Origin: Pseudochelatococcus lubricantis
GTDB taxonomy: Bacteria; Pseudomonadota; Alphaproteobacteria; Rhizobiales; Beijerinckiaceae
Direction of reading: 5' to 3'
Assembly (NCBI RefSeq): GCF_011762225.1
Contig: NZ_JAASQI010000002.1
Coordinates: forward strand, 248,001-312,000
Length of the DNA: 64,000 bases
Part shown: positions 24,398 through 60,500 of the stretch, one piece after another
Numbering within the stretch: position 1 is the stretch's first letter
How the letters are laid out: each line of letters begins with the position of its first letter
Program-made: the position numbers and the translations under genes
Notes under the pieces: model-generated
Told to the model about the DNA's origin: nothing
What the model saw: the letters and a program-made list of their open reading frames with translations, nothing else
Databases searched by the model: none

Positions 24398-24976
24398 TCA
24401 TCTCCGTCGCCCCCTGCCGAAATTGATCACCTTTGCCGCCCAAGCGACCTCTGAATCAAGGATCGGCTCGCCAAACTGGCCTAGTAGATGATAGCGCCCG
24501 CGTGTTGATGCCGCTTGGATTTTCTTGACGAGGATTTTCCCGTCTGGAAGGCCGACTACGCATATTTCGCCTATCAGGTCGGGCGTCACCTCGGAGCGAA
24601 CGTCATCGTAGAAGACGTACCAACCATCAAAGAATGGGCCGAGGCTGTCGCCCCTGATTTCGACCGCCACAGTCAGCGGGCTTGACCCTTCCGGTGCTTC
24701 GACAACATCGAGCGGGCCCTGCGTCGTATCGTAGAAATGCGCACCGGTCCCCGCGCCGACGTACCCGACAACCGGAGCCTCGATCGGCCCTTCACCAATT
24801 ATTGCCTCTGGTGGCTCACCAAGGGCTTCGGCAGCTCTCTCAATCCATTGCTGATCAAGCCGCCTGTCGCCCTTCTCCAGTTTGATAAGCTGGTTCTTAG
24901 TCGTGCCCATCCGCCCCGCGAGTTCCGGTTGGGTAAGGCCGTGCTTTTTCCTCAATGACTTCAGATTGTTCGCCAT
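24398..24976 (-). CDS. C2/LexA-type CI repressor with S24 autoprotease domain
   Basis: 192 residues from MANNLKSLRK. N-terminal XRE helix-turn-helix (residues 4-55, LTQPELAGRMGTTKNQLIKLE), then a hinge with the cleavage dipeptide Ala75-Gly76 (GYVGAGTGAHFY), and an S24 domain with nucleophile Ser111 (RGDSLGP) and general-base Lys151 (ILVKKI). RecA-stimulated self-cleavage should inactivate it after DNA damage. The ATG at 24976 has GGGGG upstream; longer in-frame starts run through the operators. It presumably binds GTGCCC-N5-GGGCAC at both early promoters and its own. Confidence 0.92.
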   Translation of the reverse strand: MANNLKSLRKKHGLTQPELAGRMGTTKNQLIKLEKGDRRLDQQWIERAAEALGEPPEAIIGEGPIEAPVVGYVGAGTGAHFYDTTQGPLDVVEAPEGSSPLTVAVEIRGDSLGPFFDGWYVFYDDVRSEVTPDLIGEICVVGLPDGKILVKKIQAASTRGRYHLLGQFGEPILDSEVAWAAKVINFGRGRRR

Positions 24977-24985
24977 GCCCCCAAT

Positions 24986-25061
24986 ACGCCCAATTTGGGC
25001 ACAATTGATAGTGAACCAGATGGGCACCTTTCCAGTTGACGTTAGTGCCCATTTGGGGCAC
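24986..25061. promoter_or_regulatory. oR-like control region: three repressor operators and Cro promoter
   Basis: Copies of the 17-bp palindrome: 24986-25002 (ACGCCC arm, GGGCAC arm), 25011-25027 (GTGAAC, GGGCAC) and 25045-25061 (GTGCCC and GGGCAC, perfect). Rightward -35 TTGACG is at 25036-25041 and -10 CACTGT at 25059-25064, 17 bp apart, so the perfect operator covers the spacer and -10 exactly as at the leftward promoter. The cI promoter should read leftwards across the first two operators. Confidence 0.75.
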
Positions 25062-25071
25062 TGTACGTCCC

Positions 25072-25293
25072 ATGAGATTATCAACGTACCTCAAATCACG
25101 CGGCCTCACGTATGAGGCGTTCGCCACGGCGATAGGCGTCTCGGCGTTCGCTGTTGGCAAGTGGGCGCGTGGAGCGCGAGTCCCTCGCCCTGATCACCTA
25201 CGGCGCATCCGTACCGCAACGGACGGTGCAGTGACGTTCGATGATTTCTCCCCTTCCCCCGAGCGGACCCCTTCATCCGGAGCTGAGCCATGA
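25072..25293 (+). CDS. Cro-like XRE repressor
   Basis: 73 residues from ATG 25072. MRLSTYLKSRGLTYEAFATA followed by IGVSAFAVGKWARGARVPR is a compact helix-turn-helix, and the rest is a short tail, as in Cro/YdaS-type proteins. It is divergent from cI. The start codon is only eight bases after the -10 (25059-25064), so the transcript would begin at or next to the ATG and the mRNA would be leaderless; no ribosome site exists. As in lambda, it likely represses cI and early transcription during lytic growth. Confidence 0.8.
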   Translation: MRLSTYLKSRGLTYEAFATAIGVSAFAVGKWARGARVPRPDHLRRIRTATDGAVTFDDFSPSPERTPSSGAEP

Positions 25294-49237: not shown

Positions 49238-49357
49238 ATGTTCCGTGCCCGCATTCGGGCGATGGGCTCGGCTTACCTGAAGGCCGTCAAGGGCGAGCCG
49301 GATGTGCCGGAGAGCAGTAATTCAGCAAGGGATGTGTTCCGGGCGGCGATGCGGTGA
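49238..49357 (+). CDS. 39-residue tail-region protein
   Basis: MFRARIRAMGSAYLKAVKGE...RDVFRAAMR. Basic, helical; a similar short peptide follows the chaperone in related alphaproteobacterial phages, as I recall. Ribosome site weak. Last gene of the contiguous tail block before the accessory island. Confidence 0.45.
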   Translation: MFRARIRAMGSAYLKAVKGEPDVPESSNSARDVFRAAMR

Positions 49358-49406
49358 TCGGCGTTCCCGCGCGCCGCGTCGTCTATCAATCACTCCGCGA
49401 GGTATA

Positions 49407-50114
49407 ATGGCGAGACGCCAGGATTCAACGAGCAAACCCGTCCGGAAGCCAAAACAGGAGAAGCCACCGACAGTACCACAGGGGCGGCAGGAGCCGGTGG
49501 CACCGCGCACGCAGGCGCAGAGCAGGTATAGGGCTGCCATAGCGGCGTCGGACATCACGTTCGGCATCGGGCCGGCCGGCACCGGCAAGAGCTACGTGGC
49601 TGTTTCTGACGCCGCCGATGCCCTCAAGCGGGGCGATATCGAGCGCATCGTCATCACGCGGCCGATTACGACTGTTGGCAATTCATTGGGCTATTTCCCG
49701 GGCGGGGTCGACGAGAAAATCGCGCCGTACATCGCGCCGATCCGGGAGATACTCGACGAGTCCTTTGGGGTCTCGTTCGTCACGAGCCTGATCAAGTCAG
49801 GGAAGATCGTCGCGGCTCCCGTTGAGCTGATGCGTGGCGCAACGTTTCGGAACGCTTGGGTGATCGTCGACGAGGCGCAAAACCTGACATTTCACCAGCT
49901 CAAAACCATCCTGACGAGAGCGGGCGAGGGGGCGAAGACCATCATCGATGGCGATCCGGGGCAGATCGATGTCCCTGCGTGGAAATCCGGCTTGATGGAG
50001 GCCGTCGACCGCTTGATGGGCGTCGACGGCGTTCGTATTGTCCATTTCGACCGATCCGACATCGTGCGCAGCAGCCTCGTCAGGCGGGTTTTGGCCGCGC
50101 TGGATGGGCCGTGA
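49407..50114 (+). CDS. PhoH-like ATPase
   Basis: 235 residues from MARRQDSTSK. A basic N-terminal tail, then Walker A GPAGTGKS (55-62), RITRP-like IVITRPITTVG, Walker B WVIVDEAQN and GDPGQIDVP (sensor). This is the PhoH fold, related to SF1 helicases; the role of phage PhoH is unsettled (RNA metabolism has been suggested). Placement between tail genes is unusual. First gene of the accessory island. Confidence 0.9.
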   Translation: MARRQDSTSKPVRKPKQEKPPTVPQGRQEPVAPRTQAQSRYRAAIAASDITFGIGPAGTGKSYVAVSDAADALKRGDIERIVITRPITTVGNSLGYFPGGVDEKIAPYIAPIREILDESFGVSFVTSLIKSGKIVAAPVELMRGATFRNAWVIVDEAQNLTFHQLKTILTRAGEGAKTIIDGDPGQIDVPAWKSGLMEAVDRLMGVDGVRIVHFDRSDIVRSSLVRRVLAALDGP

Positions 50115-50117
50115 GGA

Positions 50118-50408
50118 TCAGTGCTTGAGCCCCATCGCCTTGCGCAGCTCGGCGTTCATCTTCGCCTGCCAGCGCGGGCCGGTTGCCTTCAACGCCGTCA
50201 ACAGGTCGGCGTCGAGACGCACGGAAACCTGCTGCTTGGGACTCGCAACCCTTGGCCTTCCTCTTGGCCGAGTGAGCGTGCCATTCGCCTCCCGTATCAC
50301 CTTGCCGTCAACGGCCAGTTCAGCGCGGGCAAGCTGATCCTCGGTCCACTCTGGGGCATCATCCAGGTCAATCAAGGTAGGGTCTGACTTTACGTGCTTC
50401 GCGTTCAT
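50118..50408 (-). CDS. BrnA-family antitoxin-like DNA-binding protein
   Basis: 96 residues from MNAKHVKSDP. PRVASPKQQVSVRLDADLLTALKATGPRWQ split around the basic ribbon and ending AELRKAMG match BrnA antitoxins, which are ribbon-helix-helix proteins. No BrnT toxin (small RelE-fold) is next to it. It is the third gene of a leftward trio with the winged-helix gene and DUF6516 gene, 37 bp from the middle gene, and converges on phoH. Confidence 0.7.
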   Translation of the reverse strand: MNAKHVKSDPTLIDLDDAPEWTEDQLARAELAVDGKVIREANGTLTRPRGRPRVASPKQQVSVRLDADLLTALKATGPRWQAKMNAELRKAMGLKH

Positions 50409-50445
50409 GCCGCTGCCTTCGCTACCATGTCGGGACGCCGCCTGA

Positions 50446-50805
50446 TCACGCAGCAACGCCCAGGTCGTAATCGAAGTGGATGCGGTCATAGGGGAACTCG
50501 ACCCCGCTTTCCGTCCGGTCAACGATGCCCGCATTCACGAGCGTGGTCACATCGCGATGGACGGCTTGTACGTCGCGGTCGACGCGGCGTGCAACCTCTC
50601 GGATTGACAGTGCTCCTTGGCCGGCCAGCGCCCGGACGATGGTGATGCGCAGCGGCGCGAGCACGCGGTGCATCTCGTCATAGGACAGGAAGTTGACAGA
50701 CGGTGCCGCCTCCGTGGCCTTGCCAGCGAGTGCGCGCCTCCCGGCCTCCACGAAGCGCGCCTTTGCGTCATCCATGGTGCTAAGTCGTACAGTCAGCGTG
50801 GTCAT
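50446..50805 (-). CDS. Winged-helix antitoxin (HVO_A0114-like) of the DUF6516 toxin
   Basis: 119 residues. LAPLRITIVRALAGQGALSI, REVARRVDRDVQAVHRDVTT and LVNAGIVDRTESG form a MarR/ArsR-like winged helix. The pair of this protein family with an adjacent DUF6516 gene is a predicted toxin-antitoxin system. Its ATG overlaps the toxin stop (ATGA), and it probably binds the inverted repeats in the promoter upstream of the toxin. Confidence 0.72.
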   Translation of the reverse strand: MTTLTVRLSTMDDAKARFVEAGRRALAGKATEAAPSVNFLSYDEMHRVLAPLRITIVRALAGQGALSIREVARRVDRDVQAVHRDVTTLVNAGIVDRTESGVEFPYDRIHFDYDLGVAA

Positions 50806-51083
50806 GTGATGATCCTTTCCATGTCGGCCTGAAAGGCGTCGAACAGGTCTTCGAGCGAGGTAAAGGCGACGGCGTCTTCACGGCCTTCGATATGCCGGTG
50901 ATCGCCCTTGCCGCGCTCGTTGTCATAACGCAGGACGCATTCGCCGTTCACGACAAGCGCCAGCCTGTACTTGAACGGGTGGGCGCTGCCCGGAACGGGA
51001 TTGGGCAGGTGCCACAACACGACCTCGAAGAATGTCGTGTCGTTGATGACCGTCCGTGATTTCTCGATCAGTCTGGCTTTCAT
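50802..51083 (-). CDS. DUF6516-family toxin
   Basis: 93 residues from ATG 51083 (MKARLIEKSR). FFEVVLWHLPNPVPGSAHPF-KYRLALVVNG and VLRYDNERGKGDHRH are the DUF6516 pattern. The gene is first in the trio, toxin before antitoxin. A start at 51095 would sit inside the -10 hexamer, so 51083 is chosen; the mRNA would be leaderless. The biochemical activity is not known to me. Confidence 0.72.
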   Translation of the reverse strand: MKARLIEKSRTVINDTTFFEVVLWHLPNPVPGSAHPFKYRLALVVNGECVLRYDNERGKGDHRHIEGREDAVAFTSLEDLFDAFQADMERIIT

Positions 51084-51085
51084 GT

Positions 51086-51130
51086 TGTTATTCATAACAT
51101 CATCATCGGGCGTTGTCAATGATAACAACG
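51086..51130 (-). promoter_or_regulatory. Promoter and inverted repeats of the toxin-antitoxin trio
   Basis: Minus strand: -35 TTGACA (51119-51114), 17 bp, -10 TATGAA (51096-51091). One inverted repeat, TGTTAT-TC-ATAACA (51086-51099), overlaps the -10; a second with CGTTGT/ACAACG arms (51111-51130) overlaps the -35. Layout expected for autoregulation by the antitoxin. Confidence 0.7.
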
Positions 51131-51152
51131 GCGGTGAAGGGGATTAAGTGGC

Positions 51153-51428
51153 ATGCGCATCACGACCGACAAGCAGGACAAGCTGGCATGGACATCGTTC
51201 GACCTTGCCGACATCGAGATGCGCGTTGATGGCGAGGTGGTGCATCACGTCGTAACGGCGGACGACGCTGAGGGATACGCCATCGTGCTCAATCGCGAGT
51301 TGGCCGTGCCGGAAGTCTTGACTGGCAAGGTCGAGTTCATGCCGAAAAACGAGCGCGGCGAAAAGCTGCTCGCCGCCCTCCGCAAGCGCTGGGAGATACT
51401 GGCGCCGCAGTGGGGTTCGCTATGCTGA
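51153..51428 (+). CDS. Small prophage protein of unknown function
   Basis: 91 residues, MRITTDKQDKLAWTSFDLAD. Mixed beta pattern with IEMRVDGEVVHHVVTADDAE-GYAIVLN, similar to small phage proteins of unknown function. Overlaps the next gene by 7 bp. Confidence 0.6.
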   Translation: MRITTDKQDKLAWTSFDLADIEMRVDGEVVHHVVTADDAEGYAIVLNRELAVPEVLTGKVEFMPKNERGEKLLAALRKRWEILAPQWGSLC

Positions 51429-51601
51429 GAAGCATCTTCGGGACCGGCAGATGGGTCGCTGGCAACGTTGCTCTGGCCGCGCTGCTTATCATCTCCATTT
51501 TCATCTGCGTTGCGCTTCTCGCCGGCCGGGGCGATGTTCTGCTGCCGCTGTTGGGTGTCTATGCCTTTGTTGCGGGCTTCCTGCTCGGCCGCGAGGGGTA
51601 G
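51422..51601 (+). CDS. 59-residue two-span membrane protein
   Basis: From MLRSIFGTGR: spans at about 14-34 (NVALAALLIISIFICVALLA) and 38-56 (LLPLLGVYAFVAGFLLG). Overlaps the preceding gene. Function unknown. Confidence 0.55.
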   Translation: MLRSIFGTGRWVAGNVALAALLIISIFICVALLAGRGDVLLPLLGVYAFVAGFLLGREG

Positions 51602-51661
51602 CCGGGCGATTGACAGAATCGCTGTAGTCCCGCCATGATTCCGCTGTCTGGCGGGGGCGGA

Positions 51662-52120
51662 ATGTTCGAGCAGGCCGATAGCGTTGATGAGTGGCTACGG
51701 ATTGCCCGTTCGAATCGGGATGCCGCGTACGCCCTTGTGTACGTTCCGTCAACTCGGAATATCGCGTGGGAACGCGCCGGGTTCGCCGCCGAATGTGTGC
51801 TAAAAGCGTCGATAATGGCAAAAGAGCGTTTGAACAGGTTCCCGCCAAGAGCTTTGCGTCGCGATCTATATGATCACGATCTGGGGAGGCTCTCTCGCAC
51901 CCTCGGAATGGAAGTCATGGCTGATGACGATCTGGCGCCGTATTGGCAGGTTGTGCTACAGTGGCGTCGAGAGCACACATATGTGGCCGGAGAAATGCCG
52001 CTGACAGTTGTTCGTGAGTTGCTTGATGCTGTGTTCTCAGATGATGGAGTGGTGCCGTGGGTGTGCCGGAGTTACCTCGGGAGCTACATGACGCCGGAGC
52101 AGAATATCTGGCGCAGATGA
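51662..52120 (+). CDS. HEPN-like domain protein
   Basis: 152 residues from [10 protein letters not shown] (GGCGGGGGCGGA upstream). [20 protein letters not shown] is the first long helix typical of HEPN domains ('aGyaaEcaLKa'), followed by [13 protein letters not shown]. The canonical RxxxxH RNase motif is not clearly present: RREH at 102-105 is the nearest. HEPN proteins often act as RNases in toxin and abortive-infection systems. The partner gene overlaps by 64 bp if it starts at 52057. Confidence 0.65.
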
Positions 52121-52548
52121 GAGGGCTTGGCCTTCACCCGGAAGCGTGCCTTTGGATGCTTCGGGGGCACGACAAGCAATTCGTGCTTGTTATCATCTGG
52201 TCAGGGGTTGATAAGCACGGCCCCCTGTCGCTCTCGAAGCTTCTCTTCATGGCATATCGATCGTCTCTGCTTACAAGAGAAATCGACCCGTTCTTTATAG
52301 AGGCGCGCAGCCCGAAAGAGGACCTGGCGAATTTCGTGCTACATGCGGTGCCGGACAAGTCACAGCCAGTCGGCATGGAGTGGAAGCAGACGAGAATGCC
52401 CGTTGCCTTGGCTGACAATAGCGACGATGCAACCTATACGTGGCAACATGAGTGGGTGTATCACGTTCAGCAAAAAACCCGTTCAGTCCACCAGGTTCGT
52501 CAGGACTGGAAACGCTTCCGTCAGAACGTGGAGCGGTTGGCGGCGTGA
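52057..52548 (+). CDS. Partner protein of the HEPN-like gene, unknown family
   Basis: 163 residues from GTG 52057; an ATG at 52117 forms the usual ATGA overlap and gives 143 residues. Contains [31 protein letters not shown]-like [20 protein letters not shown] and an Arg/Gln-rich helical end ([17 protein letters not shown]). It looks cytoplasmic. The tight coupling to a HEPN-like gene, and a terminator right after, suggest a two-gene unit. Function not recognised. Confidence 0.55.
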
Positions 52549-52598: not shown

Positions 52599-52925
52599 TC
52601 AGTCTTCGGGCTTTTCGGGCGGCGTCTGGCGCTTACCGAGGTGTATAGCCCGTTTGACGGCCGTTAACCGTTTTTGCGTGGCGATTAGACGCGCCGCCGT
52701 CTCCATCCGCCTTGCGGCGGCTTCCATGCGCCTCAGGTGCGCGCCGTTGACCGAGTCGGCAGGCTTGGCGGTTGCGTCGAATGACGCTTCGAGGCGGGCG
52801 ACAATCTCGGCATTCAGAGAGCGGTTGTTCTTCGCGGCCTCAGCCTTCAGCCGGTCGCGCATCCCGTCAGGGAAGCGGACAATGTATCGGTCAGCAGTTT
52901 CGCTCGGGTAGGGGTCTTTGGCCAT
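52599..52925 (-). CDS. Arc-family ribbon-helix-helix repressor (leftward)
   Basis: 108 residues. SETADRYIVRFPDGMRDRLKAEAAKNNRSL broken over the beta strand and two helices, then NAEIVARLEASF: the Arc DNA-binding fold. The C-terminal 60 residues are helical and basic. It reads away from the 49-bp palindrome and its homologue on the other side, like arc and mnt of P22 immI. Confidence 0.82.
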   Translation of the reverse strand: MAKDPYPSETADRYIVRFPDGMRDRLKAEAAKNNRSLNAEIVARLEASFDATAKPADSVNGAHLRRMEAAARRMETAARLIATQKRLTAVKRAIHLGKRQTPPEKPED

Positions 52926-52948
52926 GGCGGGGATTCATACACGCTTTT

Positions 52949-53038
52949 ATGCCGAGTTGGAATTATGCCGACTTGACATAAAATGCGTGCGCACCCTCCT
53001 TTCAATATGCCGACTCGGCATATTGAAAGGAGGGTGCG
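52949..53038. promoter_or_regulatory. Divergent control region with 49-bp perfect palindrome and ATGCCGA operators
   Basis: Bases 52990-53038 are a perfect palindrome (24-bp arms, one central C). Its centre 53007-53021 is ATGCCGACTCGGCAT. Two imperfect copies of that 15-mer lie at 52949-52963 and 52965-52979. The right arm contains AAAGGAGG, the ribosome site of the rightward arc-like gene, so the mRNA could fold to hide it. A TTGACA at 52973-52978 and TTGAAA in both palindrome arms are candidate -35 elements. Confidence 0.75.
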
Positions 53039-53043
53039 GGCAT

Positions 53044-53292
53044 ATGAGCCATACATACCCCAGCCAAGTTATGGATAGGGTCAATATTCGGCTGCCGGAT
53101 GGCGTGCGAGAGAAAGTGAAGGCTATCGCCGCACATAACCGCCGGAGCATGAATGCAGAGATAGTTTTTGCGATTGAGCGCCATCTCGGCGCGCTCGACA
53201 GCGACGGGGCTTATGAGTTTGGCCACCACGGCCCCGTCGCTGCCACCAGAACCGACGCCTTGCAGGGCGTTGACCCCACCACTCAAGGCTAA
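53044..53292 (+). CDS. Arc-family ribbon-helix-helix repressor (rightward, Mnt-like position)
   Basis: 82 residues from MSHTYPSQVM, with AAAGGAGG upstream. DRVNIRLPDGVREKVKAIAA-HNRRSMNAEIVFAIERHL is the Arc fold; short C-terminal tail. It is 13 bp upstream of the KilA-N gene and probably represses or co-transcribes with it. The frame is open further upstream through the palindrome, but without a supported start. Confidence 0.82.
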   Translation: MSHTYPSQVMDRVNIRLPDGVREKVKAIAAHNRRSMNAEIVFAIERHLGALDSDGAYEFGHHGPVAATRTDALQGVDPTTQG

Positions 53293-53305
53293 GAAGGAGC
53301 CTCGA

Positions 53306-54124
53306 ATGAGTACCGGTACATATAGCACGAGCGCGCTGGTCTACAACGGCGAAGTCATCAATGCGCGCGACGAGATGCTGTCGCTGACGGATATGTGGAA
53401 GGCCGCAGGCGGAGACAAGGCGAAGCAGCCGGCGAACTGGCTTGCTTCCGCTGAGGCGCAGCGATTTATCCAGTTTCTTGATGATGTCCTCAATCCCAGA
53501 AATTCTGGGATTGAACTGGTCAAGGCGGTTAGGGGTGGTAAGAGCCCCGGAACCTGGGCGCATTGGCAAATCGGCCTTGCCTATGCCAAGTACCTGTCGC
53601 CGGAGTTCCATGCCAAGTGCAACGTGATTGTCCGCGAGCGGATGGAAGGCAAGTCGATCTCTGTGGCATCCCTGCCTCCGGAGGTTCTGGAGATGATCCG
53701 CCGCGACGATGGCATCTCCAGAATGCTCGCGCACAAGGTGACCGGCATCGAAAGGACTGTCGAGGCGCTCACGAGCGTCATTGCGGCAATCGCGCAGGTC
53801 GTCCAGCCGTCAACGCCTGTGCTAATCCGACAGGGAAGAACTGCGGGGCAGATTCTCAAGTCGGCAGGGTATCCGCCAATGAGAGGGCTGGCGCCGTGGT
53901 TCGGCGGCCTTCTCACAAAGGTCGGGTGCCGCGTCCCGGATAATGCACGCGCTGAAATAGGAACAGCGCGCGCCCGACTGTTCGACCCCGACAAGGCTGA
54001 AGCGTACCTCGAAAACGGGGGCCGGGTTGCGGTCGACGCGAAGATTGCCGAAAGGCGCGGGCAGATGTCGCTGCATCTCGTGCGTGGCGGCCGCACCGAC
54101 GAGGACCGACCGTCAATCCAGTGA
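53306..54124 (+). CDS. KilA-N domain protein, candidate antirepressor
   Basis: 272 residues from MSTGTYSTSA (AAGGAGC upstream). Residues 8-120 are a KilA-N domain: LVYNGEVINARDEMLSLTDM, KQPANWLASAEAQRFIQFLD and GTWAHWQIGLAYAKYLSPEF. The C-terminal part (about 170-255) is a helical domain of the ORF11CD3/antirepressor kind. Position next to Arc-type repressors matches the Ant gene of P22 immI, so antirepression of CI is a fair inference. Confidence 0.78.
   Translation: MSTGTYSTSALVYNGEVINARDEMLSLTDMWKAAGGDKAKQPANWLASAEAQRFIQFLDDVLNPRNSGIELVKAVRGGKSPGTWAHWQIGLAYAKYLSPEFHAKCNVIVRERMEGKSISVASLPPEVLEMIRRDDGISRMLAHKVTGIERTVEALTSVIAAIAQVVQPSTPVLIRQGRTAGQILKSAGYPPMRGLAPWFGGLLTKVGCRVPDNARAEIGTARARLFDPDKAEAYLENGGRVAVDAKIAERRGQMSLHLVRGGRTDEDRPSIQ
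53491..53513. repeat. 23-bp perfect palindrome inside the KilA-N gene
   Basis: CAATCCCAGAA, central A, TTCTGGGATTG. It codes for residues around NPRNSGIE. Could be an operator or mRNA hairpin; P22 has an antisense RNA over ant. Confidence 0.7.
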
Positions 54125-57560: not shown

Positions 57561-60500
57561 ATGGCAACCACGCACAGCGTCAACCTTGAGGTTAACACTG
57601 CTGGCGTCAAAAAGGCGTCCGTCGATCTCGCTGACATTGAAAAATCCATCAACGAAGCCGGGAAGGCAATCGATACGTTTGGCGATAAGTCGAACGATGC
57701 GGGGAAGTCCGTCGAAAAAACCGGCGAGAAGACACGCAAGGTTATCACCAATTTCGAGCGAGTGGAAAAGGCCATCCGCGACGCCGAGAAAGCCATGCAG
57801 CAGATGGCGCGTGCGACATCCCATATGGGGTCATCCATAGACCGGATGGAAGCTGAGCTACGACAGGCGACGGCGGCGATGAGAGCTTCTGCGGAGGCGA
57901 CGCGGGCTATGCAGGCAAGCATCGCCCAGATGGGGTCGTCGTTTGATCGCGCTGTAGCGGGGATGCGGAGCGCGGGGAGTGAGGCAAGAGCTGGCGCGTC
58001 GAGCGTCAGCCTGCTGTCCACGGCATACAGCCATCTAGCGGGGCTGATCGCCGGCTTGGGTGTCTACCAGCTAGGCCGCACGTTTATCGAGATGGCCGAT
58101 ACCTCGAAGATGCTGGAAGGGCGCTTGAAGTTGGTCACGTCAAGTTCCGACGAGCTCGTCGCCGTTCAGGGGCGGCTTTATGCGGTTGCGCAAGGTTCGG
58201 GCTCGGCACTTGAAAGCACGGTGGAGCTTTACGCGCGTCTCGCTCGCTCAACGAGAAGCCTTGGCGTCGAAAGTGACACGCTTCTGACGGTCACAAACAC
58301 GCTGCAACAGGCGTTTGCAGTCTCCGGGGCGAGCACGCAGGAAGCGACGAATGCGATCATTCAGATGTCGCAGGGCCTCGCCGCAGGCGCGCTCCGGGGC
58401 GAGGAATTCAATAGCGTCGCTGAGCAGGGTTCGCGTATCACGGAGCTGCTAGCGGATAGCCTCGGCATGACAATTGGAGAGCTGCGCGCGTTCGCGGCGG
58501 AGGGGGGCATTACGACGCAGGTCATCATCGATGCCACCGTGAAGGGCGCGCAGAAGATCGCCGAAGAATACGCCAAGCTGCCGCCGACCGTCGAGCGCGA
58601 AATGACGTTGATGCGCAATGCTGTGCTTCAGGGCATTGGCGATATCGACAAGGAACTTGCGATCACCGAAACGATTGCCCGCCATATGAAGGAGATGCGG
58701 CAGGCCATTGAGGCGGCGGATATCGGCGCAATCATCGATAAATGGGTGCCATCGTTTGGGGCTGTCGCGGCGGCAGTCACCCTTGTTTCCGGCGCTATGG
58801 CCAGTCGTCTCGTCCCGAGCCTTGCCCTGACGGCCGGGCAGATGGCGGCACCCATTGCCTTGGCGTGGCAGATCAGTGCGTCAGCTACAGCAGCAGCAGC
58901 GGCAACGAGTATTCTTTCCGGGGCTCTCAGCGCGCTCAATGCTGTCATGCGAGCCTTTGGTGGGCCTATAGGTCTAGTGATTAGCGGCGTCGCTGCCGGA
59001 ATTGCATATTGGGCAACAAGCACCGATGACGCGACGGCGTCGCTGCGGGTGTACGAGAGCGTCCTTAATAGCATCATCAAAAAATATCGAGAGTCCGCTG
59101 GTGACGTAGAGAAGTTCGCCAAGGCGCTTGATGAGATGTCCCGCACGGAGTTGGAGGCATCCCTGCAAAAGGCGCGGAAGGAGTTTGAGAGCATCAAGCA
59201 GACGATGGGTGAGATCGCCGGCGGTGGGTTGCTCACGACATTCAAGCAGGCGTTTGGCGTCGAGATGAGCGAGGGGGCTCGTCGACTTGCGGATGCCACC
59301 GACCGCCTGTTCAAGAGCGGTGATCTTACCGGGTTCAGGCAAACGCTTGATGCTATCTCTGCCGCAACCCCTGAGGTGGCCCAGCAGGCCGATGAGCTAA
59401 TGAAGCTGGCCTCGAAATATGAAGATGCTGGGAGGAATGCCGGGATATTTTCCAATGCGGTTGCTGCGTCGGAAGGAGACATGAACGGGGCCGGCCGTAC
59501 TGCGGATCTTCTCGCTGGTAAAGTGACCGGAATGGGCAACGCGGCGGCCGGCGCGACGCCGCAGGTTTATGGCCTGTCCAGCGCCATGAAGGAAATCATC
59601 GCCCTCGCACCCCAGATGAATGCGGCGATGCAGGCGCAGATGAAGCTGGCGACATTGCAGTCCAACTACCAGAAGGAGATGGCTGCGGCCGAAGAAGCAT
59701 TCCAGCAGAGCAATGACGCGGCTGCGTATGTCGTCCAACTTGAAAAGCTCAACGCCGCGATGGGTGAGGCAACGGGCAACGTCACTGGTTACACCGCCGC
59801 TCAGGAAACCGTGATAGCGCAGAGCGAGAAAATTGCCCGCGATGCCCTTCCTCGCGAGGAACGCGCACGAGCTGAATTGAACGCTCGATACGATGAAGCG
59901 GCAGAGAAAATCAGGAAAACGCTCGAAACCGGCGCCGAGTACAACAAGGTGCAGGAGCTGATTGCCCAGAACGAGAAGAACCGGTCTGGCGATATGGCGA
60001 ACCTGAACCGCGATCTTGAAGCTCAGGCGGCGAAGCACAGCAAGGCCGGAAAGGCTGCGCGCGACCATGCCAAGGCCACGCAGCAGCTCGAAAACGCCGT
60101 CGAACAGCTCATCCACCGGAACGACGAGCAGATCAAGCTGTTGGAGCTGGAGGCCGCCGGATACGGCAAGTCTGCCGAGGAAGTCCTGTACCTGAAGTAC
60201 GCACACGATGCCGAAACCGCCGCGCTGCGCGCCAAGGTGCCGTTGACCGAACAGCACCTTGCCCGGCTGCGAGAGCAGGCGCAGCAGGTGTCGGCGCTGA
60301 CTGCGGCCCTCGACGCGCAGCGGAAGGCTCAGGAGGCGCTAAACCAGGTCCAAGACCTCGTTTCCGCCACCTGGGTCCGTGCCCTTGAAGACATGACCCT
60401 GAACGCCGAAACGCTGACGGACGCGATCAAGGGCATCGGCGACGCATGGTCGAAAGCCTCTCTCGACGCTCTCCTGACGGGCAAGGGGCCGTTGGCGCAG

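Follow-up and report, generated by a model that had tools for sequence, protein, structure and literature searches.

The KilA-N subfamily described here fairly likely encodes an operator within the codons of its own DNA-binding domain, as a mobile and self-contained specificity cassette. Such a cassette would, by the same probable reading, consist of a 25-bp palindrome in codon phase, placed 15 to 20 codons after the helix-turn-helix (HTH) residues that read it. Our computations demonstrate the palindrome, its codon phase, its constraint at the level of DNA and its coevolution with the HTH residues. One member of the subfamily is encoded in the 64,000-nucleotide stretch analyzed as a whole (the window), in an interval that is quite likely to be a phage switch working like P22 immI, with a KilA-N operator added inside the KilA-N gene itself.

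The module comprises a divergent pair of small genes, ArcL and ArcR, both above the Pfam Arc cut-off in a profile search, and a co-directional KilA-N gene that starts 13 nt after the arcR stop and has KilA-N as its sole Pfam match (matches up to E 1) (Table 1). An integrase, recombination genes and a CI-like HTH repressor (24401–25084) lie to the left of the module, followed toward it by terminase, portal, scaffold, head and tail genes, all on the left side; a 2146-aa open frame starting at 57561, to the right, is taken for the tape measure. The sequence-only reading of this DNA had described the divergent Arc-family repressors, the KilA-N gene after ArcR and a CI region separate from an Arc module near tail genes, and the profile searches and gene order bear out each of these points. 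The segment just ahead of the Arc module (49302–52548) encodes a PhoH-like ATPase, a BrnA-type antitoxin, an HTH protein and two small unknown genes.

Table 1. Features of the Arc/KilA-N module, in window coordinates.
Feature	Position	Strand	Remarks
ArcL, Arc-family ribbon-helix-helix repressor, mnt-position gene, 108 aa	52599..52925	-	Pfam Arc 46.7 bits (curated cut-off 20.4 bits); ORF
Operator-like copy 1, ATGCCGAGTTGGAAT	52949..52963	.	3 mismatches, 2 if read on the other strand
Sigma-70-like match, TTGGAA-N16-TAAAAT	52957..52984	+	Weak: 1 found versus 0.5 in shuffles
Operator-like copy 2, ATGCCGACTTGACAT	52965..52979	.	2 mismatches, 3 if read on the other strand
TTGACA, inside operator copy 2	52973-52978		-35 aligned with TTGACG of relatives
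Perfect 49-bp palindrome, comprising operator copy 3, the ribosome site of arcR and the mirrored copy of both	52990..53038	.	
Operator-like copy 3, ATGCCGACTCGGCAT	53007..53021	.	Center of the 49-bp palindrome
GGAGGG, arcR ribosome site	53029..53034	+	In the right arm of the 49-bp palindrome
ArcR, Arc-family repressor, 82 aa	53044..53292	+	Pfam Arc 43.5 bits (curated cut-off 20.4 bits)
KilA-N protein, 272 aa, antirepressor candidate	53306..54124	+	Pfam KilA-N (PF04383) 61.9 bits (curated cut-off 23.8 bits); domain model pLDDT 85.5
Helix-turn-helix residues N W L A S, codons 44-48	53435..53449	+	Counterparts coevolve with the internal palindrome
25-bp perfect palindrome in KilA-N, codons 63-69 (NPRNSGI), proposed self-operator	53490..53514	.	

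The palindrome inside KilA-N, which was absent from the sequence-only reading, is the longest perfect inverted repeat in the window after the 49-bp palindrome discussed below, and we consider it more informative than the features that reading had named. We compared 176 KilA-N loci, reduced to 118 distinct sequences by removing duplicates and fragments shorter than 200 nt. A palindrome stands at one alignment column, where the mean is 7.79 of 12 pairs, compared with 3.23 (sd 0.42) at the other columns and 4.75 at the highest of them, and 97 of the 118 sequences, the window included (its own record being L024 and L154), have at least 8 pairs at the homologous place. A first set of 77 distinct sequences behaved alike (mean 7.93 of 12 pairs versus 3.24, sd 0.48, over columns), with at least 8 pairs within 6 codons in 63 of 77 sequences versus 80 of 1327 control places. 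Codon shuffling lowered the score from 9.16 to 6.72 in the 77 sequences and from 9.04 to 6.79 in the 118, with p <0.05 in 73 of the latter.

Of the 97 sequences, 60 derive from viral contigs, 33 from genome contigs and 4 from annotated records, with hosts named in the titles that range over Pseudomonadota, Desulfovibrio relatives, Cyanobacteria, Chloroflexi and Bacillota. Their palindromes keep the place and mostly change the letters, giving 88 distinct 21-mers; in the near relatives L190 and L197, the right flank is 0.90 identical and the palindrome 0.30, both copies still being palindromic. At pairs 5, 6 and 10, 98% of the 97 are complementary, compared with 45% at pair 1; beyond pair 12 the signal falls off. 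Codon phase is fixed as well: 84 of 91 dyads with at least 9 pairs center on the middle base of a codon.

The palindrome is independent of the Arc module, occurring in 24 of 26 sequences with an Arc pair and 73 of 92 without one. A palindrome of at least 8 pairs is missing from 21 of the 118 sequences. Seventeen annotated KilA-N records, some near and some more distant, include four with an in-phase palindrome at the homologous place (9 pairs in Paracoccus phage vB_PkoS_Pkon1 and Planktothrix, 10 in phiAX1 and Azospirillum) and 13 without one (4–7 pairs), among them P1, HK620, HK97 and SfII; HK97 and phiEt88 have a 9-pair dyad at the homologous place, out of phase. The palindrome is thus a trait of the subfamily. 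An exact search of viral contigs for the window's internal palindrome returned only the identical record IMGVR_UViG_2828467665, and we rejected this palindrome as an Arc operator because the letters differ. The KilA-N gene of Methylobacterium sp. NEAU 140 is spread over two scaffolds and broken at the palindrome in an insertion-like manner (L089:1235-1269, L091:4140-4190).

The internal palindrome is under constraint at the level of DNA, as computed from synonymous positions. With centers set from second codon positions only and the expectation drawn from each gene's own usage, 258 of 360 fourfold third bases complement the first base of the mirrored codon, versus 104.0 expected (z 18.7); centers taken from the alignment column alone give 228 of 344 versus 97.8 (z 16.2), both z values being inflated by the relatedness of the sequences. 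These versions replace one in which centers came from the total palindrome score (256 of 302 versus 87.5), which was biased. Eight shifted controls ranged from z -1.6 to 4.6, with three, all downstream, at 3.0 or more.

The letters of the palindrome follow the residues expected to read them. Our scan was anchored on the PxXW motif, found in 91 of the 97 palindrome-bearing sequences (the broken L089 gene is among the 97 and outside the 91), and W+2 denotes the residue two after the conserved HTH Trp. G stands at base -5 in 45 of the 47 sequences with Arg at W+2 and in 2 of the 44 without it, the other 42 having another base, so that 87 of 91 are concordant; the window fits, with Ala at W+2 and C at -5. 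One of the four exceptions, L069, is centered differently from its near relative L070. On a tree from which the recognition and palindrome positions had been left out, there are 20 changes of the Arg state and 22 of the G state; 16 branches carry a change in both, versus 2.46 expected, as counted by parsimony on one FastTree tree. In a subset of 19 representatives below 55% identity, the Arg/G pair comes first of 592 residue–base pairs and holds in 18 of them. Further links join Lys at W+3 to C at -4 and -3 (11/11) and Asp before the Trp to C at -6 (16/20); W+3 and base -4 are only weakly linked on the tree (P 0.007), and base -7 shows little association with residues around the Trp (z at most 3.0).

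The same dependence extends to synonymous codons. Where codon 2 of the palindrome specifies Val, it is GTG in 21 of 21 sequences with Arg and GTC or GTA in 16 of 17 without; where it specifies Leu, it is CTG in 9 of 9 with Arg and CTC in 4 of 4 without, so that the third base follows Arg in 50 of 51 sequences for the two residues together. Coevolution and this synonymous-codon link make self-binding the leading reading, and the simplest reading of the pattern is that the KilA-N subfamily would bind an operator in its own gene.

Three other accounts of the internal palindrome have to be set against this one. If the amino acids that it encodes contacted the HTH within the protein, the palindrome would be a by-product, and the codon-6 residue does change together with residues beside the Trp; protein contacts, however, cannot choose synonymous bases, whereas the third base of codon 2 follows Arg and the fourfold third bases follow the mirror, and we therefore hold this account to be very improbable. 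An mRNA hairpin serving translation pausing, RNase III cleavage or binding of the RNA by a protein is also improbable, if less extremely so. Perfect palindromes necessarily fold in RNA and the position in the message is fixed, but an RNA hairpin should favor G-U pairs, and A-C and G-T mismatches are about equally common (25 and 26 in the set of 118, 25 and 23 in the set of 77), which points to DNA rather than RNA; complementarity moreover reaches pairs 2 and 3 near the center (66 and 76%), and the Arg/G link fits an HTH reading DNA.

The palindrome might instead be the target of another protein, such as a recombinase, a mobile element or a regulator, or be kept perfect by template-switch mutation. 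Its fast turnover between some near relatives and the insertion-like break in Methylobacterium sp. NEAU 140 speak for such an origin, which we rate as unlikely, though the least so of these three accounts, given that its place is constant and in codon phase across hosts from several phyla and that base identity tracks the KilA-N recognition residues.

The predicted fold is compatible with self-binding. In the domain model (93 rows, pLDDT 85.5), helices span residues 42-46 and 49-62 and wing strands 72-75 and 82-86, and the palindrome encodes residues 63-69, between helix and wing; a full-length AlphaFold model from 8 rows (pLDDT 51.3) was set aside. The predicted fold may be of the winged-HTH type known from Mbp1/APSES proteins; the best solved folds were Mbp1 (1bm8, Z 7.6) and the PCG2–DNA complex (4ux5, Z 7.0), values that are only suggestive below a Z of 8. 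Foldseek returned no match under E 0.001 for the domain model, and a profile search of solved-structure sequences with KilA-N returned none. The article on PCG2 places helix B in the major groove, with the wing in the minor groove (PMC4333399). PCG2 differs from the present proposal in reading CGCG mostly through its wing, and the abstract and examined passages of the same article mention no self-encoded site (PMC4333399).

We propose that KilA-N binds the palindrome at codons 63-69 as a symmetric pair of winged-HTH domains, in which residues 44-48 around the conserved Trp, just before helix 49-62, would read the half-sites. Once bound, the protein would stop RNA polymerase ~200 bp inside its gene and thereby hold down its own production, which suggests how a putative antirepressor may restrain its expression. 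With the recognition codons and the operator lying within ~80 bp, the two can be moved together by a single recombination tract, and the cognate pair would thereby survive changes of specificity. The lacO2 site in lacZ is an intragenic operator and, like the KilA-N site, lies inside coding sequence; the KilA-N site differs in being in the gene of its presumed binder, in codon phase, and in changing with the recognition residues.

Searches for further targets lead back to the KilA-N gene. No second palindrome site scored above shuffled-half controls in the window plus 20 kb, in Pkon1 or in phiAX1. At up to 3 mismatches in 16, loci of at least 3 kb among the 97 (622 kb) yielded 8 rows at 6 places against 8 control rows, and six virus records of the ATG/CAT class, which may be fragments, each have exactly one site at up to 2 mismatches. 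With no second site above controls, the main target would be the gene itself, which points to autoregulation, and KilA-N probably represses itself through the embedded operator. A second copy of the L092 palindrome with a perfect core is found in another ORF 1.6 kb downstream (L092:5714-5734).

If self-binding is true, the DNA target of each palindrome-bearing member could be read from its own gene, a protein–DNA recognition code (Arg for G and so on) could be learned from ~100 natural pairs by sequence alone, and the joint change of specificity in operator and protein, an old question, would become directly testable. A literature search, judged by titles and the starts of abstracts and covering few subscription journals, returned no paper on what the KilA-N subfamily binds.

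The comparison with P22 immI, drawn in the sequence-only reading, stands for the layout and fails for the antirepressor family. Shared with P22 are the divergent repressor genes, an Arc gene upstream of a gene for a known or, in the window, putative antirepressor, and the place among late genes; in P22, O_arc is located within Pant and O_mnt immediately ahead of arc, and the window has operator-like copies in its intergenic region. The two differ in that the window has three copies of one operator motif and a perfect palindrome over a ribosome site, and a KilA-N protein in place of Ant. P22 Ant belongs to Pfam families other than KilA-N, and the window's KilA-N protein matches no other Pfam family, so that this candidate antirepressor would be at best a functional analog of Ant. 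The arcR/kilA-N gap, where P22 has the sar antisense RNA between arc and ant, is 13 nt, and an Rfam search gave no match at the gathering score, in a database that may have no sar family.

That reading had also called the arrangement unusual, which P22 itself and several other phages contradict. A divergent Arc-like pair lies within 2.5 kb of KilA-N in 21 of 84 loci (40 viral contigs and 44 genomes), a count that includes the window's own record and the duplicates L066 and L028; a second viral set gave 19 of 80, many being the same contigs. Pkon1 has Arc-like, Arc-family and KilA-N genes (p51-p53), ordered as in the window and preceding the tape measure, together with CI/Cro and the in-phase palindrome inside KilA-N, with other operator and palindrome letters, and the phiAX1 record likewise annotates an Arc pair and KilA-N. 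These loci and annotations mark the arrangement as recurrent; the Arc pair and KilA-N layout is known, and no genome other than this one showed the 49-bp palindrome. The phiAX1 record also annotates a second KilA-N protein close to the first (L235:40358-42142).

At the DNA level, blastn of the region against phage records gave no match, and a search of 298 genomes of the family gave one long match (G047). KilA-N at E 1e-30 hit only its own genome among 397 genomes of the order. KilA-N proteins are found in numerous phages: one member has matches in 100 of 50,697 phage records. A single genome of the class has five KilA-N matches of equal score and span (L125, L131-L134) and a sixth (L135).

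The intergenic operators are better defined by their grouping than by their number. At up to 3 mismatches, the operator 15-mer occurs in 9 rows in 64 kb versus 3.8 expected, so that copy number alone is not significant; the pattern ATGCCGANNNGNNAT occurs in 5 rows versus 0.32 expected, and 4 of the 5 come from three operator places within 73 bp. The two weaker copies that had been reported to the left of the central operator were located, at 2 or 3 mismatches each. By eye, many relatives have ArcL, an operator copy, TTGAC, a second copy and another just before the ArcR ribosome site, with operator letters that differ between phages sharing this layout. The ArcL strand HFRLR may be linked to particular boxes, a relation that is suggestive only: loci L030, L040, the near-identical L044 and L052 have this strand and common GCCACAC boxes, and L049, also HFRLR, has TGACGCA instead. 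We propose that the two divergent Arc-type repressors would bind the repeated operators around the promoter of the arcR–kilA-N operon.

The window's rightward promoter is poor under either of two readings. The only sigma-70 match in the region, TTGGAA-N16-TAAAAT, has an estimated start at ~52991, the left end of the 49-bp palindrome. By the geometry of the relatives, TTGACA would be the -35, with the -10 inside the left arm and an estimated start at ~53008; the hexamer at that -10 place is TCCTTT (2 of 6 matches), whereas 16 of 18 TTGAC promoters of relatives have at least 3 matches, L040 and L049 being as weak as the window. The operator copies are present and the layout of the relatives fits, while the promoter match itself is no better than chance.

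The 49-bp palindrome has 24-bp perfect arms, one central base and a chance expectation of ~2e-10, and no perfect inverted repeat of the window (loop up to 10) exceeds it in length. It contains ATGCCGACTCGGCAT and, at 53026-53034, AAAGGAGGG ahead of the arcR ATG at 53044, in full agreement with the earlier description of its arms, central operator and ribosome site. Within 1.3 kb upstream of KilA-N in 40 viral loci, it was found only in the window's own record; lesser repeats are those of L030 (17-bp arms, 2 mismatches) and L039 (14-bp arms, 1 mismatch), both spanning two operator copies but not the ribosome site, and of L060 (11-bp). An exact search of viral contigs for the core of operator and ribosome site again returned only the identical IMGVR_UViG_2828467665. 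Because L003, which is identical to the window, may be the same strain, an assembly error could also account for the palindrome.

A dual role for the 49-bp palindrome, as operator and as an RNA fold-back hiding the arcR ribosome site, is favored only narrowly over an accident. A message from ~52991 folds at -47.1 kcal/mol (z -9.4) with the ribosome site hidden; one from ~53008 is without the long hairpin and only weakly structured (z -0.63). The fold-back would hide the site in any message whose 5' end lies at the left arm or farther upstream, which makes a lock against late-gene read-through possible; fold-back protection of this kind is known for the IS10 transposase. About as likely, with a chance somewhat short of even, the palindrome is a functionless product of a template switch in which operator and ribosome site were copied leftward, overwriting the promoter -10. 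Its restriction to this genome among the relatives scanned, the 2 of 6 matches left at the -10 place and the order of operator then ribosome site in the right arm, which matches relatives such as L030, agree with such an event, but L040 and L049 have an equally weak -10, and the sole promoter match would put the 5' end of the message at the left edge of the palindrome. Two-way use of the ribosome site was rejected, because the only frame behind the left copy is 10 codons long and stops short of ArcL. A separate 12-bp inverted repeat with a 20-nt loop lies near the arcR 3' end (53199-53242), and both of its arms are identical in L005, a locus of the same genus in which the intergenic operator region is not conserved.
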